The notes beneath the pieces were generated by a model. The model saw only the letters and a list, made by a program, of their open reading frames with translations. It was not told the DNA's origin and made no database searches. Below are positions 447 to 31,627 of a stretch of DNA of 32,932 bases, piece after piece. This DNA comes from Bacteroidaceae bacterium (GTDB lineage Bacteria; Bacteroidota; Bacteroidia; Bacteroidales; Bacteroidaceae): contig JAFZYE010000011.1 in the NCBI GenBank assembly GCA_017616445.1, forward strand, positions 1-32,932. Direction: 5' to 3'. Position 1 is the stretch's first letter. Each line of letters opens with the position of its first letter. A program made the position numbers and the translations under genes.

Positions 447-513
447 CACAACAGAAACACATAAGGATTTCACCTATCTCTTCTGTGTAAAATTCATGAC
501 AAACAAGAAGCAC

Positions 514-722
514 CAACACTATATCAACGCTATATCAACTCTATCTCAACGCTATACCAACTCTATGTTACCTATAGGTTACCCCTAGGTTAACTCTAGG
601 TTAACTCTATATCCTCTCCCTAAGAGCAACACTACTTCTCTCTATGAGTGAAACGGCCTTTCTCTATGAGCGAAACTACTTCTCTCTATGAGCGAAACTA
701 CTTCTCTCTCCCAACGATTGTT
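514..722. repeat. 11-bp-period tandem repeat array, about 19 units
   Basis: The sequence divides without slips into 11-bp units from 514. Units 1-5 (514-568) have the form CAACnCTATnn. Units 6-9 (569-612) drift to TAnCnCTAggT. From 613 the units alternate between CTTCTCTCTAT-like and GAGCGAAACTA-like forms, giving a 22-bp super-period (635-656, 657-678, 679-700). The last units at 701-722 are degenerate. There are no unique spacers, so it is not CRISPR. The period is close to one DNA helical turn. Function unknown. Confidence 0.85.
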
Positions 723-3121: not shown

Positions 3122-3733
3122 ATGAATATCGATTTTGAGAAGATGGACGGACTGGTACCGGCAATCATTCAGGACGACAAGACACTGAAGGTACTGATGC
3201 TGGGATTCATGAACGAGGAAGCATACCAGAAAACGGTGGAGACAGGTAAAGTGACCTTCTGGAGCCGTACGAAGAACCGTCTATGGACAAAGGGCGAGAC
3301 AAGCGGTAACTACTTGAACGTAGTGTCAATCATGAACGATTGTGATAACGACACCTTATTGATTAAGGTAAATCCCGTTGGCCCTGTATGCCACACAGGT
3401 GCAGACACTTGTTGGAATGAGACGAACGAGAACCCCATCATGTTCCTGACAGAACTGCAGCGTTTTATTGAGAAGCGTCACGAAGAGATGCCTGAAGGTT
3501 CGTACACCACCAGCCTGTTCAAAGACGGACTGAGCCGCATGACACAGAAAGTAGGCGAAGAAGCCGTGGAACTGGTCATCGAATCGATGAAAGGTGACAA
3601 CGAGCGTATGATTTACGAAGCATCGGATATGTTCTACCATCTCATCGTGTTGCTGACATCCAAGGGGCTGAGCATTGAGGATATTGCCAAGGAACTGATT
3701 GAACGTCACGATCCGAATTGGCATAAACACTAA
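3122..3733 (+). CDS. hisIE: Bifunctional PR-AMP cyclohydrolase / PR-ATP pyrophosphatase
   Basis: This fusion carries out the second and third steps of histidine synthesis. Residues 1 to about 105 are the HisI cyclohydrolase domain, with the metal-binding segment [13 protein letters not shown]. Residues about 110-203 are the HisE pyrophosphohydrolase domain, with the helical [10 protein letters not shown] motif that binds Mg. At 203 residues it is a full-length fusion. It ends the his cluster and is followed at once by a GC-rich palindrome (3734) and an AT-rich repeat before ftsE. Confidence 0.97.
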
Positions 3734-3855
3734 GAGACCCTCCCCTGTCCCCTCCCTTCTCTCCCCTTGAGGGGAGTGCGAAGGGAGAGAATACGGTCTC
3801 TTCCCCCCTCAGCCCCGAGGGGCTCTGTCCCCCGAGGGGGATGAGGGCGGGGAGT
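3734..3855. repeat. Large GC-rich multi-hairpin element after hisIE
   Basis: The element begins right after the hisIE stop. It has an outer pair GAGACC (3734-3739)/GGTCTC (3795-3800) enclosing the hairpin CTCCCC-TTGA-GGGGAG (3761-3776). These are followed by AGCCCC-GA-GGGGCT (3811-3824) and CCCCC-GA-GGGGG (3829-3840). It may form a strong mRNA 3' structure, or be two neighbouring copies of the dispersed element. Confidence 0.75.
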
Positions 3856-3877
3856 AAAATGTGTGCGGATGTAATTA

Positions 3878-3952
3878 GCTAAATAGCTAAATAATAAAAT
3901 AGCTGAATTGTAAATAAATAGTTAAATTGTCAATTGTCAAATTGTAAATTAG
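3878..3952. repeat. AT-rich 7/8-bp repeat tract before ftsE
   Basis: TAGCTAAA-like 8-mers are followed by TTGTCAA-like 7-mers up to the ftsE start. The register is less clean than in other arrays. It fills the position after the GC element, as in the polyamine operon gaps. Confidence 0.55.
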
Positions 3953-23666: not shown

Positions 23667-24794
23667 TTAAATACGTGATTTGAAATCATCATAGCAAAAT
23701 TGCTTCCAAAGGGTCAAATTCTCCCCTCTACGTATGTAGATGTTGGGTAGAGGCATCCCATTGAAGGTGTTGGTCTTCACCATCGAATAGATGGCCATAT
23801 CACCAAAAACAATTTCATCTCCTTCGTGTAATTCCTGAGCAAACTGATAGGTTCCGATAATATCGCCGGAAAGACAAGTTGGACCACCAAGACGATAAGA
23901 CCCACTCTTACTATCCCCGATGGGAGGAAATAGAATCGGAGGTGTATACGGCATCTCAATCACATCGGGCATGTGACAGGCGGCTGAGGTGTCAACAATC
24001 ACGTTTTGGATTCCGTCAGTTCCTGTAGGCTGTACTTCCATCACACAGCAATGCAGTTCGCCTGCATTGAGGGCAACAGCCTCGCCTGGTTCCAGATAAA
24101 CCTCCAAACCATATTCTGTCTGCATTCTACGGATGCAACATTCAAGTCGTGGAATGTCATAGTCTTCACGGGTGATATGATGTCCTCCTCCGAAGTTTAT
24201 CCACTTCATGTGAGGCAGATACTTACCGAATTTCTCTATTACGGCATCAAGCGTAGTTTCCAAATCGTCTGAGTTCTGTTCACAGAGCGTATGGAAATGG
24301 AGACCGTCTAACAACGAAAGATTGTCTGCAATTTGTGATTCGAACTGTAAGAGTGTGGTTCCCAGTCGACTTCCTGGCGCACAGGGATCATATATTGCAT
24401 GACCTTCCTGAGTAGAACATTCGGGATTGATTCTCAGTCCCACCTGAAGTCCTGCATCTTTCGCCCGTTGTCCATATAATGCCAACTGACGTGGTGAGTT
24501 GAAAACGATGTGGTCACATATTTTGAATATTTCGTCTATTTCATCTTCGTGGAATGCAGGTGAGAAGATATGGATCTCCCCTTTTGGCATTTCCTCATGA
24601 CACAGGCGGGCTTCATAGAGCCCAGAAGCAGTCATACCATGAAGGTATTGCGAAATGAGCGGATACAATCCGTAACAGCTGAAACACTTCTGCGCCAGCA
24701 GAATCTTACAACCGGTACGGTCAATCACACCTCGAAGCACCTTCAGGTTCGCTTCAATCAGGTCTGCATCAATTATAAAATATGGCGTTTTCAA
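23667..24794 (-). CDS. nspC: Carboxy(nor)spermidine decarboxylase
   Basis: The enzyme removes CO2 from carboxyspermidine (or carboxynorspermidine) to give spermidine. The 375-residue protein is an alanine-racemase-fold PLP decarboxylase. Lys36 in ILLAQKCFSCYG holds PLP, and HFHTLCEQ, NFGGGHH and EPGEAVAL are family segments. It is the last gene of the polyamine operon, after the matching dehydrogenase. The start codon is TTG at 24792-24794, inside the heptamer array 24789-24865; no ATG gives the family N terminus (MKTPYFIIDAD). Product specificity between norspermidine and spermidine cannot be read directly; spermidine is usual in Bacteroidales. Confidence 0.93.
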   Translation of the reverse strand: MKTPYFIIDADLIEANLKVLRGVIDRTGCKILLAQKCFSCYGLYPLISQYLHGMTASGLYEARLCHEEMPKGEIHIFSPAFHEDEIDEIFKICDHIVFNSPRQLALYGQRAKDAGLQVGLRINPECSTQEGHAIYDPCAPGSRLGTTLLQFESQIADNLSLLDGLHFHTLCEQNSDDLETTLDAVIEKFGKYLPHMKWINFGGGHHITREDYDIPRLECCIRRMQTEYGLEVYLEPGEAVALNAGELHCCVMEVQPTGTDGIQNVIVDTSAACHMPDVIEMPYTPPILFPPIGDSKSGSYRLGGPTCLSGDIIGTYQFAQELHEGDEIVFGDMAIYSMVKTNTFNGMPLPNIYIRRGENLTLWKQFCYDDFKSRI

Positions 24795-24865
24795 CTTTCA
24801 ACTGTCAATTTTCAACTGTCAACGCATTCTACTGACTATAAACTATAAACTTTAAACTATAAACT
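24789..24865. repeat. Eleven-unit heptamer array between dehydrogenase and decarboxylase genes
   Basis: Eleven 7-bp units in one register on the + strand: TTTCAAC, TTTCAAC, TGTCAAT, TTTCAAC, TGTCAAC, GCATTCT, ACTGACT, then ATAAACT, ATAAACT, TTAAACT, ATAAACT. The nspC start codon lies in the first unit. Two unit types are joined without loss of phase. Confidence 0.88.
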
Positions 24866-24868
24866 TTA

Positions 24869-24896
24869 TTCCCCCTAAAGGGGGTTAGGGGGTCTA
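24869..24896. repeat. GC hairpin element at the dehydrogenase stop
   Basis: In the gene's sense the element reads TAGACCCCC, CTAA, CCCCC, TTTA, GGGGG. It starts directly after the TAA stop. Its core and layout are nearly the same as the element at 26229-26256. Confidence 0.85.
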
Positions 24897-26156
24897 TTAC
24901 GGAACTAATACCGGATTCTCATCTACTTGCCAAGGAAGTCCCCACTTGTTGAGTGCCTCCATATATGGATCTGGGTCGAACTCCTCTACGGTGAATACAC
25001 CTGGACGTTTCCACAATCCCTGTAGCACCATAGCGGTACCAATCATTGCCGGAACACCTGTCGTATATGATATCGCTTGTGAGCCTACTTCACGATAGCA
25101 TTCCTGATGGTCACATACATTATAAATATATAAGGTGCGCTCCTTGCCGTCCTTGATACCTGTATAGATACAACCGATATTGGTCTTTCCGACAGTACGT
25201 GGACCTAACGAAGCAGGATCGGGCAGCAGACGACGCAGGAACTGAATCGGCACAATCTCATGTCCCTCAAACTCTACGGGTTCAGTACCCAGCATACCGA
25301 CATTTTCCAGACACTTCATGTGTGTCAGGTAGCTCTGACCAAAAGTCATGAAGAAACGGATACGCTTCACGTGTGGGATATTCTGTGCTAACGATTCTAT
25401 CTCCTCATGATGTAGCAGATACATGTCCTTCTCCCCTACTCCGTCAAAGTTATAGGTACGATGAATCTCCATCGGCTTGGTCTCTACCCAATGACCGTTT
25501 TCCCAATATGATCCATTCGCACTCACCTCACGCAAGTTAATCTCTGGATTGAAGTTGGTTGCAAACGGATATCCATGATCACCTCCATTACAATCCAGAA
25601 TATCTATAGTGTGTATCTCATCGAAGTAATGCTTCTGAGCATAAGCAGTGAAAACACTGGTCACACCAGGATCGAATCCTGTACCCAACAAAGCAGTAAT
25701 ACCAGCCTTTTCGAATCGTTCACGATAAGCCCATTGCCAAGAATAGTCGAAGTAAGCCGTGAAACCCTTCTCCTTGCATCGTTTCTCATAGATAGCTCGC
25801 CACTCAGGGTCGTTAGTGTCCTCACATTCGTAGTTGGCAGTATCCACATAATCAACTTTCGTCTTCAGACATGCCTCCATGATGGTGAGGTCTTGATAAG
25901 GAAGTGCTAGGTTGAGTACGATATCAGGCTTTACCTCATTGATGAGAGCCACCAACTGATCCACCTTGTCTGCATCGACCTGAGCTGTTGTAATCTTTGC
26001 CTTTGTCTTGCCTTCAAGTTTCTGTTTCAATGCGTCACACTTGCTCACCGTACGGCTAGCGATACAAATCTCGTTGAATACATCTGCATTCTGAGCGCAT
26101 TTCTGAATAGCGACTCCGGCCACTCCTCCGCAGCCGATAACCAATACTTTGTTCAT
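24897..26156 (-). CDS. Carboxy(nor)spermidine dehydrogenase (synthase)
   Basis: This 419-residue saccharopine-dehydrogenase-like protein belongs to the group that condenses putrescine with aspartate semialdehyde and reduces the product with NADPH to carboxyspermidine. The Rossmann loop VIGCGGVAGVAIQKC is at the N terminus, with SRT after the second strand. DYVDTANYE, LGTGFDPGVTSVF and CNGGDHGYPFATNF are segments typical of the carboxyspermidine subgroup. It is adjacent to the matching decarboxylase and downstream of arginine decarboxylase and a ureohydrolase. The aspartate semialdehyde links it to the lysC pathway upstream. Condensation with agmatine instead of putrescine is an open alternative. 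Confidence 0.93.
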   Translation of the reverse strand: MNKVLVIGCGGVAGVAIQKCAQNADVFNEICIASRTVSKCDALKQKLEGKTKAKITTAQVDADKVDQLVALINEVKPDIVLNLALPYQDLTIMEACLKTKVDYVDTANYECEDTNDPEWRAIYEKRCKEKGFTAYFDYSWQWAYRERFEKAGITALLGTGFDPGVTSVFTAYAQKHYFDEIHTIDILDCNGGDHGYPFATNFNPEINLREVSANGSYWENGHWVETKPMEIHRTYNFDGVGEKDMYLLHHEEIESLAQNIPHVKRIRFFMTFGQSYLTHMKCLENVGMLGTEPVEFEGHEIVPIQFLRRLLPDPASLGPRTVGKTNIGCIYTGIKDGKERTLYIYNVCDHQECYREVGSQAISYTTGVPAMIGTAMVLQGLWKRPGVFTVEEFDPDPYMEALNKWGLPWQVDENPVLVP

Positions 26157-26192
26157 CTATTAATTTACTATTTACGGATTTACTATTTTTAC

Positions 26193-26227
26193 TAAAGTCT
26201 AAAGTCTAAGGTCTAAGGTCTAAAGTC
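26193..26227. repeat. Five-unit heptamer array TAAAGTC
   Basis: Five 7-bp units: TAAAGTC, TAAAGTC, TAAGGTC, TAAGGTC, TAAAGTC. The same TAAAGTC-type heptamer recurs at 29759-29786, at the end of the Ste24 gene. Confidence 0.9.
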
Positions 26228-26228
26228 T

Positions 26229-26256
26229 CTCCCCCTAAAGGGGGAAGGGGGGTCTA
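26229..26256. repeat. GC hairpin element overlapping the speB stop
   Basis: In gene sense the element is TAGACCCCCC, TT, CCCCC, TTTA, GGGGGA. Its first three bases are the TAG stop codon of the ureohydrolase gene. It is joined on its far side to the TAAAGTC heptamer array. Confidence 0.85.
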
Positions 26257-27108
26257 TAGCCGGAGCACAATTTCTCTCACCAACTTCCCTGCTACTGCTG
26301 TCGACACCCCCGTAGGATCAAGTGTAGGAGCCAGTTCATTCACATCCAGCCCCACGATATTCAACCTGCTGCAGACCGTCATCAGGGCTTCACGCAATTC
26401 GTTGAAGCTCACTCCTCCAGCCTCAGGCGTACCTGTTCCAGGAAAGACAGATGGGTCGAGCACATCGAGGTCAACAGTCAAGTAAACAGGCACTTCCGTT
26501 TTCTCCAGTTGGTCCACCACAGCACTCACGCCATCCAGATTCAATGGATGGAAGTCGGTATGTCCAGACTTTGCCCATTCAAATTCTGCTCGTTCGCCTG
26601 AGCGGATTCCAAACTGGTGAATCTTACCGTCACCTATCAGTTCATGACAACGACGCATCACACAAGCATGCGACAGCTTCACTCCGAGATAGTCGTCACG
26701 CAAGTCTGCGTGGGCATCAAAATGAATGATGTGTATATCCGTGTATCTCTTCTGCACCTCACGGAATGCACCAAGTGTCACCAGATGTTCACCTCCCAGC
26801 ATGAACGGCACCTTTCCGTCATCCAGAATTTCAGCTGTTCGTTCCGATAGCGCATCAAGTGCCATCTCGGCCGACCCCATCGGCAGTTCTATATCGCCTG
26901 AGTCAAATACAGCGATGTCTTCCAGATCTCTGTCAAGATAAGGCGAATAGGTCTCAAGCCCATACGACTCATGTCGGATGGCTGCACTACCGAATCGTGC
27001 TCCTGGCCGATAGCTGGTTGTTGAGTCGAAGGGTGCTCCGAACAACACGATGCGAGCATCCTTGTACTCAGCATTACAAGCGATAAAGGTCTCAACGTTC
27101 TTTCTCAT
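26254..27108 (-). CDS. speB: Agmatinase-family ureohydrolase
   Basis: Agmatinase hydrolyses agmatine to putrescine and urea. The binuclear Mn site is complete: GGEH, DAHADLRD, SHACVMRR and TVDLDVLDPS followed by PGTGTPEAGG. The ATG at 27106-27108 is preferred, giving 284 residues beginning MRKNVETFIAC; its ATGA overlaps the TGA stop of the upstream speE-like gene, a sign of translational coupling. An upstream in-frame start at 27210 would lie inside that gene. It follows arginine decarboxylase and a SpeE-like gene in the operon. An alternative substrate is aminopropylagmatine if the carboxyaminopropylagmatine route operates. Confidence 0.93.
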   Translation of the reverse strand: MRKNVETFIACNAEYKDARIVLFGAPFDSTTSYRPGARFGSAAIRHESYGLETYSPYLDRDLEDIAVFDSGDIELPMGSAEMALDALSERTAEILDDGKVPFMLGGEHLVTLGAFREVQKRYTDIHIIHFDAHADLRDDYLGVKLSHACVMRRCHELIGDGKIHQFGIRSGERAEFEWAKSGHTDFHPLNLDGVSAVVDQLEKTEVPVYLTVDLDVLDPSVFPGTGTPEAGGVSFNELREALMTVCSRLNIVGLDVNELAPTLDPTGVSTAVAGKLVREIVLRL

Positions 27109-27956
27109 TCCACTTTTGCTAACAGTTTCTCCACGTATGCAGGCAAGGCAAAGCATCCCTTGTGGAGGTTCGTTGTATAGTAGTTGGTTTCGATTCCCAG
27201 TTTGTTCCATCTTTTGGCGTTCAGGTCATCCACAGGATGATATTTCTTCGAAGCATAACCGAACAGCCAGTAACCTGATGGATAGGTAGGGATATGTGCC
27301 TGATACACACGGCTGATTGGGAAGCATTCCACGATTCGCTTATGTGCCTTCTGGGTTTCAGCACGATCTTCTGCATAGAATGGCGACTGATGCTGGTTCA
27401 CCATGATACCGTCTTCTTTCAGTGCCTTATAACACGAGCCGTAGAACTCACGCGACAGCAGACTCTCGCCTGGTCCATAGAACCCCGCAGAGTCGACGAT
27501 AATCACGTCGTACTCACCCACGATATGACGCACATACCTCAAAGCGTTCTGGGTATAGATGGTTACTTTCGGGTCATCCAGTCCGCTTGCTGAGAACGGC
27601 AGGTATTTCTTGGCTGCTTCCACCACTCCCACGTTCACCTCAACCATATCGATACGTTCCACATCAGGATACTTCAGCAACTCACGCACCACACCTCCGT
27701 CGCCTGCACCAAACACAAGTATCTTCTGTGGGTGCGGGTGAACAGCCATTGGGATATGCGTCATCATCTCATGGTAGATAAACTCATCACGCTCCGTCAT
27801 GACGATATATCCGTCAGCAGTCAACACTCTGCCATATTCTGGCGATTCAAAGATATCGATGCGGTTGTGGTCGTTCTCTTCAGAGAAGATATGCTTGTTC
27901 ACCTTGATCGACAGCTTTACATTCTCCGTATGTAGCTCAGAAAACCAAAATTCCAT
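27105..27956 (-). CDS. speE: SpeE-like (spermidine synthase family) protein with altered active site
   Basis: Spermidine synthases transfer aminopropyl from decarboxylated AdoMet to putrescine. This 283-residue protein has the fold: GAGDGGVVRELLKY at about 83-96 for the nucleotide, and TERDEFIYHEMMTHIP. Several acidic positions conserved in true synthases appear changed by eye: VEVN (105-108) where VEID is usual, QNALRYV (N137) where D is usual, and DSAGFYGP (155-162) where DSTDPxGP is usual, so the second Asp is Gly158. No speD is in the window. The operon also encodes the carboxyspermidine route, so it may be a diverged aminopropyltransferase or methyltransferase-fold protein of other function. 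The symbol reflects family, not activity. Confidence 0.75.
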   Translation of the reverse strand: MEFWFSELHTENVKLSIKVNKHIFSEENDHNRIDIFESPEYGRVLTADGYIVMTERDEFIYHEMMTHIPMAVHPHPQKILVFGAGDGGVVRELLKYPDVERIDMVEVNVGVVEAAKKYLPFSASGLDDPKVTIYTQNALRYVRHIVGEYDVIIVDSAGFYGPGESLLSREFYGSCYKALKEDGIMVNQHQSPFYAEDRAETQKAHKRIVECFPISRVYQAHIPTYPSGYWLFGYASKKYHPVDDLNAKRWNKLGIETNYYTTNLHKGCFALPAYVEKLLAKVE

Positions 27957-27979
27957 CTATTTATAATTATCTATTTTTA

Positions 27980-28047
27980 AGAAGTTATCGCTTCGCTCGA
28001 AGTTATAGAAGTTACCGCTAACGCTCAGAAGTTATCACTTCGTTCGA
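27980..28047. repeat. Three-copy AGAAGTTA repeat
   Basis: Three units of about 20 bp begin with AGAAGTTA (27980, 28007, 28027). Copies 1 and 3 continue as TCnCTTCGnTCGA; copy 2 has ACCGCTAACGCTC. A partial AGTTAT separates copies 1 and 2. It lies between the speE-like and arginine decarboxylase genes. Confidence 0.75.
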
Positions 28048-28057
28048 CGATACTGCG

Positions 28058-28106
28058 CTAACCGTTAACCACTAACCTTTCAACTTTTACATTCTACATT
28101 TTACAT
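28058..28106. repeat. Seven-unit heptamer array
   Basis: Seven 7-bp units: CTAACCG, TTAACCA, CTAACCT, TTCAACT, TTTACAT, TCTACAT, TTTACAT. The unit type changes midway without loss of register. Confidence 0.85.
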
Positions 28107-28109
28107 CAG

Positions 28110-28141
28110 TCCCCCTTCCCTTTGGGAGGGGTCGGGGGGTA
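28110..28141. repeat. GC hairpin element after the arginine decarboxylase gene
   Basis: CCCC-TT-CCC, TTT loop, GGG-AG-GGG, followed by a further G-run. It starts a few bases beyond the TAG stop in gene sense, and the heptamer array lies on its far side. Confidence 0.8.
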
Positions 28142-31551: not shown

Positions 31552-31627
31552 GACTCGCTAGCTCAGTAGGTAGAGCATCACACTTTTAATGTGGGGGTCT
31601 TGGGTTCGAGCCCCAAGCGGGTCACCA
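31552..31627 (+). tRNA. tRNA-Lys (UUU)
   Basis: A 76-nt cloverleaf with encoded CCA. Acceptor arms GACTCGC and GCGGGTC pair with one G-T; the D arm has AGCTCAGTAGGTAGAGC; the anticodon loop CTTTTAA gives anticodon UUU; the T arm is TTGGG-TTCGAGC-CCCAA-like. The discriminator base is A. Its own promoter and terminator make it a single-gene unit. Confidence 0.97.

Follow-up and report, generated by a model that had tools for sequence, protein, structure and literature searches.

Sense copies of a short palindrome at stop codons, and a largely separate layer of heptamer arrays, in the intergenic gaps of a Bacteroidaceae genome

Why are three gaps of a single operon built to the same plan? The window (the whole stretch of 32,932 nucleotides analysed here, contig C23 of a 2.38 Mb Bacteroidaceae draft genome that is 70% complete and whose nearest named records are Bacteroidales assemblies from rumen and gut) includes a putative polyamine operon. 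Its genes are transcribed in the order basic amino-acid decarboxylase ("speA", a label that rests on sub-cutoff family matches only), spermidine synthase (speE), agmatinase (speB), carboxynorspermidine synthase (scoring below the cut-off of its model) and nspC. Read directly in the coding direction, each of three gaps presents a stop codon, then a hairpin of C- and G-tracts, then an array of 7-bp units, and the best lag-7 scores of the arrays (19.5, 25 and 14) exceed the maxima of 300 dinucleotide-preserving shuffles (9, 11 and 9.5). A sequence-only reading, which described this order correctly, proposed either one dispersed composite element that settles at gene ends or an RNA device working between the genes. 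Comparative genomics indicates that the hairpin, here called S1, and the heptamer array are mostly two separate repeat layers, and that S1 belongs to a recent family, found mostly in this species, whose sense copies are joined to stop codons.

The full S1 pattern is GACCCCC-NNN-CCCCCTTTAGGGGG and its core is CCCCCTTTAGGGGG, to which an orientation can be assigned by virtue of the loop TTTA. Genes were called with our own script, not a standard caller; labels beginning with G, C and L are ours for genomes, contigs and loci. The draft genome carries 70 copies of the core (41 on the plus strand, 29 on the minus strand), 57 of them with the full pattern, and 0 copies of a reversed control pattern. 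S1 is thus a short palindrome of high copy number that is mostly extragenic, 55 of the 70 copies lying outside called open reading frames (ORFs). Between codirectional genes there are 34 sense and 12 antisense copies (four of the latter in one region, L281, where the neighbours are distant and possibly miscalled); the remainder comprise three copies between convergent genes, one between divergent genes, 15 in called ORFs (nine antisense, six sense) and five that lack a neighbour. Judging from the copy list, the copies appear mostly solitary. Several are situated less than about 250 bases from contig ends (G000:C16:32634, C42:63593, C61:55780, C76:39011 and C60:161), where they would be anticipated had the repeat interrupted assembly.

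The genome-wide search also shows how S1 is placed with respect to stop codons. Fifty intergenic copies have both neighbours; 37 of these have a stop codon on their 5' side, and 28 of the 37 abut it (three of the 28 between convergent genes), so the precise joint that the sequence-only reading saw in the operon is a general property of S1. The core begins 8-12 nt beyond the gene end in 23 copies, which places GACCCCC, where intact, at -2 to +2, versus 1.76 copies expected from uniform placement within the present gaps. On the other side the picture is reversed: among 15 copies with a stop codon on their 3' side, none abuts it or comes within 14 nt of it (28/37 versus 0/15, Fisher 2.9e-7, the three convergent copies being counted in both groups). 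With codirectional gaps alone, the stop of the preceding gene is abutted by 25 of the 34 copies in sense orientation and by 0 of the 12 in antisense (P=7.6e-6). The fixed orientation proposed for the whole module holds for anchored S1, but not for the arrays, of which the commoner units occur in both orientations.

The stops of anchored genes may be TAA, TAG or TGA, either complete before S1 or completed by its opening bases. In some copies S1 supplies the stop itself, as TAG or TGA at its 5' edge or internally as CCC-TAA or CTT-TAG, and four anchored genes (L020:10502, L023:4776, L278:10648 and L272) end on its own CCC-TAA, giving a C-terminal -TP. Where GACC is clear, as it is in 25 anchored copies, a stop triplet is found at -2 to +2 in 22, versus 15 of 38 copies away from gene ends (four of the 42 non-anchored copies were skipped because their 5' edge is unclear), where the background is 41-53%. 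The idea that the element simply recognises the stop triplet in DNA was rejected for lack of any excess in the latter group; it is gene ends that matter, not the triplet as a DNA motif.

Other C/G hairpins share this habit to a lesser degree. In the same genome, C4+...G4+ hairpins number 28 in 76 kb of gaps and 15 in 476 kb of coding sequence, with 0.65 expected in shuffled gaps. Three-tract hairpins other than S1 are stop-adjacent in 10 of 31 cases, versus 0 of 19 facing the opposite way (P=0.008), less sharply than S1. C/G repeats of larger size and cloverleaf-like form (GACCCCCTTTGTCCTTCGGACATCTCCCCC...), in which an outer stem encloses inner hairpins, are also present at L190:5893-6202, L190:7006-7114, L051:11460-11826, L184, L022, L018 and L041, with 42-95 bp alike between loci.

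The distribution of S1 among genomes is that of a recent burst. Across 200 genomes the full pattern occurs 57 times here, 11 times in G014, three times in G007, once each in G006 and G238, and 0 times in the other 195; within the genus it is found in three further genomes (11, 3 and 1 copies) and is absent from the other 13. In 11 stretches fetched from G014, a sister species, there are 13 copies, and eight of the nine that face a stop abut it, a replicate that is only partly independent because at least two of the eight anchored genes (nadA and sigA) are the same as here. The three-tract S2 pattern is found in 6 of 120 genomes, five of them in this genus. In other hosts, those of the loci L065-L144 that exceed 8 kb hold three intergenic three-tract hairpins, none at a stop; the same-genus stretches from G006, G011 and G003 that exceed 8 kb hold seven, of which two of five are adjacent to a stop on the 5' side and 0 of five on the 3' side. 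Separately, matches to GACCCCCTCNNNNCTCCCCC... are unidirectional in each genome (G011, 6/6 plus; G007, 9/9 minus, with some sites counted twice), at G011:C8 and C36 and at G007:C16, some pairs lying about 1.2 kb apart.

Orthologous gaps were compared at 20 of the 28 anchored sites, and at all 20 some relative of the same genus has no S1. The C-terminal residues of the relative's protein are identical at 12 of the 18 sites with printed C-termini; the last residues differ at the others. Many empty gaps (lengths counted by eye) are tight: 4-9 nt in some relatives and 39-40 nt in others between speB and the carboxynorspermidine synthase gene, 3 nt in one relative between the latter and nspC, 6-9 nt behind nadA, and an overlapping ATGA at both sigma-factor genes and at L018:8915. 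Seven sites (PGK, nadC, L266, L021, L276, L017 and L278:4326) have gaps of about 29-104 nt in relatives, yet S1 here sits at the stop. Five stops have, in another species, a different type of C/G element that starts less than about 10 nt away (PGK in G014 and G006; nadC and nadA in G003; sigB in G014; the L181 gene in G007). By eye, filled and empty sites differ by small local replacements with no constant duplication, the relatives being too diverged for exactness. The expectation that a dispersed element settles at gene ends is thus borne out for the hairpin.

It is not borne out for a single composite of hairpin and array. With an array defined as a lag-7 segment scoring at or above a threshold of 12, 63 of the 74 array-bearing gaps lack a C4-G4 hairpin. 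In codirectional gaps of matched length hairpin and array co-occur only 16 times versus 11.5 expected (permutation P=0.06). An array stands directly behind 15 of the 28 stop-anchored copies of S1, a larger share than the 94 of 311 among control gaps (P=0.018), and behind only 6 of 41 copies away from gene ends. The link is real but moderate. The fixed order holds in part: when a codirectional gap contains hairpin and array together (16 cases), arrays lie exclusively downstream of the hairpin in 10, flank it in four and lie exclusively upstream in two, and the hairpin-then-array order probably arises mainly because the hairpin is located at the stop. Arrays behind S1 belong to differing unit families (AGTTTAT, TAGACTT and AAAAGTG). 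Relatives can have the array alone: at L018:8915, S1 here is followed by a short sub-threshold TAGACTT run, G003 has an array without a hairpin, and G006 and G007 have overlapping genes; by eye, the speA-speE gap of L065, L066 and L146 likewise has an array without a hairpin where the host has its S1-related one. No such hairpin was found at the corresponding operon gaps of the same-genus relatives read. Some hairpin-array pieces are nevertheless copied jointly: similar composites recur in a number of places, and three loci share a unit of 119-138 bp with 93-100% likeness.

The arrays constitute a genome-wide feature in their own right. They occur in 124 of the 438 gaps (each of at least 20 nt) of a motif-blind sample of 867 kb, made up of the opening 20 kb of contigs in the range C1-C70, and a later 79-kb sample (8 of 38 gaps) agrees. 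The motif-blind sample omits the contig of the window, C65 and nine contigs with other copies of TAGACCCCC, which were sampled apart, and is therefore biased slightly against S1. Lag 7 yields 178 arrays, versus 0, 1, 27, 22, 2, 8 and 0 at lags 5, 6, 8, 9, 10, 11 and 13, and identity at lag 7 is 0.319, versus 0.285 at lag 6 and 0.291 at lag 8. The tandem units are mainly intergenic (110 arrays in the 76 kb of gaps versus 10 in the 476 kb of coding sequence), and 176 arrays fall into 40 unit families. In the first third of gaps the units show a purine-rich bias of the sense strand (81 versus 44). The first array of a gap tends to lie close to the stop, 35 of 90 being no more than 10 nt from it where 19 are expected, with no crowding at the next start (13, 19 expected). 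Imperfect 24-mers common to different gaps number 344, versus 216-253 after unit-order shuffling, so some copying of arrays is likely beyond independent slippage. Other genomes of the genus have fewer arrays (G006, 8 of 91 gaps; G011, 10 of 64; G003, 1 of 16), and two other genera of the family have them in 0 of 34 and 1 of 51 gaps, with 4 of 91 in G121, which represents another family. A 20-base pattern of nearly three AACTCCT units matches 61 times here and 113 times in G121 (L203-L212, another family of the order), once each in three more genomes, and not at all in 144 of 149 genomes of the order; a TAGACTT pattern is found in 6 of 151 genomes of the family.

The features of the window are listed in Table 1. 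The gap between hisIE and ftsE had been thought to repeat the plan with larger hairpins: large hairpins are present, but the array is weak (lag-7 score 9, shuffle maximum 8). RNA folds of the S1 gaps give mixed results and are not consistently exceptional, the three gaps of the operon having z of -3.2, +1.3 and +0.6, the stretch between hisIE and ftsE -2.8, and two short S1 stretches -1.3 and 0.0. At curated thresholds the sole Rfam match in the window is a tRNA (31552-31624). The speA-speE gap also contains a third dispersed repeat, of type GTATCGTCGAACGAAGTGATAACTTCTGAGCGTTAGCGGTAACTTC (27980-28050), partly present by eye in gaps at L058, L273, L016 and L338, and tandem repeats of 11/22/44 bp, with units unlike the heptamers, lie near the left end of the window (512-709).

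Table 1. Hairpins, heptamer arrays and stop codons in the gaps of the polyamine operon and between hisIE and ftsE (window positions).
Feature	Position	Strand	Remark
Carboxynorspermidine synthase stop TAA	24899-24897	-	TAGACCCCCTAACCCCCTTTAGGGGG directly 3'
S1 hairpin GACCCCCTAACCCCCTTTAGGGGG	24871..24894	-	2 nt past the carboxynorspermidine synthase TAA
Heptamer array, AGTTTAT/AGTTTAA units	24835..24868	-	immediately behind S1
Second heptamer array, AGTTGAA-type units	24789..24823	-	extends into the nspC start
Agmatinase stop TAG	26256-26254	-	TAG is the opening triplet of TAGACCCCCCTTCCCCCTTTAGGGGG
S1 hairpin GACCCCCCTTCCCCCTTTAGGGGG	26231..26254	-	base 1 is the final base of the agmatinase TAG
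Heptamer array, TAGACTT/TAGACCT units	26192..26228	-	immediately behind S1
"speA" stop TAG	28149-28147	-	followed by GAGCCTACCCCCCGACCCCTCCCAAAGGGAAGGGGG
Three-tract hairpin CCCCCCGACCCCTCCCAAAGGGAAGGGGG, related to S1	28111..28139	-	about 7 nt past the speA TAG
Heptamer array, AATGTAA/AATGTAG and AGTTGAA units	28056..28106	-	speA-speE gap
Large C/G hairpin at the hisIE stop, outer stem AAGAGACC...GGTCTCTT	3732..3802	+	end approximate
Second large C/G hairpin, two inner palindromes	3803..3853	+	ends approximate
Weak 7/8-bp periodic tract ahead of ftsE	3872..3950	+	under the array threshold

REP-like elements near stop codons are already known in Escherichia coli. S1 resembles the repetitive extragenic palindromic (REP) sequences, bacterial interspersed mosaic elements (BIMEs) and REP doublets forming hairpins (REPINs), which go with RAYT (TnpA_REP) transposases, in being a palindrome of 20-40 nt, present in many copies, mostly intergenic and multiplied in a burst in one lineage. 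Canonical REPs carry a GT[AG]G foot (PMC6006769, PMC3733652), unlike S1, in which such a foot is found in 4 of 70 copies (a TAG triplet after G), most others having (A/G)GACCCCC. Ribosome stalling is reported for those REPs of E. coli that lie no more than 15 nt from a stop codon, which number 260 of 496 or 446 of 4,072 by differing counts (PMC12306157, mSphere 2025). Our own count over 350 kb of strain MG1655, made with a simple consensus expression and with clustered REPs counted singly, which lengthens distances, gives 52 intergenic REPs at broad distances on both sides; of those facing a stop, 3 of 40 on the tail side and 6 of 41 on the head side are within 15 nt of it. These figures fall well short of the 260 of 496 in the literature, for which the single counting may be partly responsible. 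Compared with the REPs of that count, the anchoring of S1 to stops is sharper and one-sided.

The 70%-complete genome has one Y1_Tnp gene (L024:1441-2040, an ORF of 151 amino acids), flanked by repeated GCCCCAAAGGGGC palindromes; another Y1 copy of the genus (L195) has similar flanks. Its WQ and YIKNQETHH motifs resemble those of subclass 1.2, and its NHVH differs, as judged from the motifs printed in PMC6006769. The S1 core is absent from 10 Y1 transposase loci of the genus, although a different C/G hairpin lies about 225 nt behind the Y1 ORF of L196. Since 66 of 70 copies lack the GT[AG]G foot and no cognate transposase was found in the draft genome or those 10 loci, S1 is REP-like in habit and not a member of the class by test. 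It is like miniature inverted-repeat transposable elements (MITEs) in being non-autonomous, dispersed, short and palindromic, but no terminal inverted repeats of a known transposase and no constant target duplication were recognised, and at stops it is sense only.

The heptamer arrays fit a known class of 7-bp simple repeats. Like the long simple sequence repeat (LSSR) and short tandemly repeated repetitive (STRR) heptamers of cyanobacteria and Beggiatoaceae, they are tandem direct repeats of 7 bp, mainly intergenic and patchy between species. According to PMC4679880, five Bacteroidetes have TAACTGA arrays as well; in one genome of the Beggiatoaceae most such arrays immediately precede start codons, and 13 sets overlap an upstream stop. 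The arrays here differ in comprising dozens of unit families, the commoner ones in both orientations, and in coexisting with a stop-anchored hairpin. The open-access literature searched yielded no account of palindromes anchored at stops, or of heptamer arrays, in Bacteroidales, which is not proof of absence.

What, then, puts S1 at stop codons? Ordinary intrinsic terminators or attenuators within operons would also be C/G stems immediately past stops in transcript orientation. This reading was rejected for the window hairpins, as the stems are followed by no T-run and a terminator scan lists none at the three gaps, and in general it is extremely improbable: the hairpin is missing from the same operon gaps of the same-genus relatives read, and S1 copies show family likeness at the sequence level and a recent burst, an unusual origin for terminators. 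One mobile element composed of hairpin and array would explain the recurring composites and the arrays behind anchored S1, but it is very unlikely in view of the many hairpin-free arrays, the scarcity of arrays behind other S1 copies, the different array families, and the relative in which the corresponding joint has the array but lacks the hairpin. Survivorship alone, whereby S1 inserts at random, the stop-start gap is the sole harmless place in tight operons and sense copies can rebuild a stop, draws on the gaps of 0-10 nt or overlapping ATGA in relatives, on the stops near the 5' end of sense S1 and on the four S1-coded TP* C-termini. It is nonetheless an improbable account of the whole, as it predicts both orientations wherever S1 follows a natural stop that is complete, yet none of 15 opposite-facing copies abuts a stop, and several relatives' gaps are long. 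Insertion guided by stop codons, through a joining step directed to the ends of translated messages (RNA-primed, coupled to mRNA ends, or by a nuclease acting where ribosomes terminate), would place S1 in sense orientation in the stop or 1-2 nt behind it and would account for both adjacency and one-sidedness. In its favour are joints that span a 5-nt window over the stop irrespective of its triplet, the lack of stop-triplet preference in non-adjacent copies, the seven sites with long gaps in a relative and the five stops with another type of C/G element in another species. It too is doubtful: no enzyme or intermediate is identified, 42 of the 70 copies are not anchored to stops, and E. coli REPs lie near stops without, to our knowledge, any targeting.

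The reading we prefer, with middling confidence, is that S1 is a REP-like non-autonomous palindrome, recently multiplied, whose sense copies at gene ends are either placed there or kept there, the arrays being separate, as is mainly shown above. Its copy number, its sense orientation at stops, its joint to the stop and its recent insertion are shown by the data: S1 multiplied recently within this species, and behind a gene it lies on the coding strand with its 5' end mostly inside the stop codon or no more than about 2 nt after it. An insertion at this point leaves both neighbouring genes largely intact. In the mRNA its C/G stem would then lie directly behind the terminating ribosome of the upstream cistron, where it may be tolerated or favoured as a 3' hairpin, acting as a barrier to 3'-5' decay or as a brake on termination, effects reported for E. 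coli REPs close to stops; many other placements were probably lost. The heptamer arrays would be a distinct genome-wide class of 7-bp repeats that arises by slippage or copying and occupies the same gaps. It is possible that the hairpin serves as an RNA device between operon genes. Several observations weigh against this preferred reading: the 15 of 70 copies inside called ORFs and the 12 antisense copies between codirectional genes; an asymmetry of orientation that a nearly symmetrical hairpin does not obviously explain; the GTAG foot in only 4 of 70 copies; the failure to find an S1-flanked transposase in the draft genome and 10 Y1 loci of the genus; and RNA folding of S1 stretches barely better than shuffles. 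In addition, the 1.76 copies expected underestimate chance, since many ancestral gaps are 0-10 nt or overlapping. Random insertion into tight gaps thus accounts for part of the adjacency; the one-sidedness is not so explained.

That the joint of S1 is here resolved to 1-2 bases, is one-sided with respect to transcription, and is recent, with filled and empty sites in sister species, makes directly testable the question whether such elements are targeted to gene ends or selected there. A more far-reaching proposal, which we consider unlikely at present, is that certain very short mobile palindromes of bacteria form a class that inserts specifically at translation stop codons, in the sense orientation and with joints confined to 5 nt over the stop. 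Sister species would then acquire different hairpins, time and again, behind the same genes, guided by the translated message end or the terminating ribosome instead of a DNA motif. Guidance of insertion by gene ends would represent a new kind of target choice; if selection is responsible, it would imply strong, orientation-specific selection on message-end hairpins in a little-studied gut lineage.

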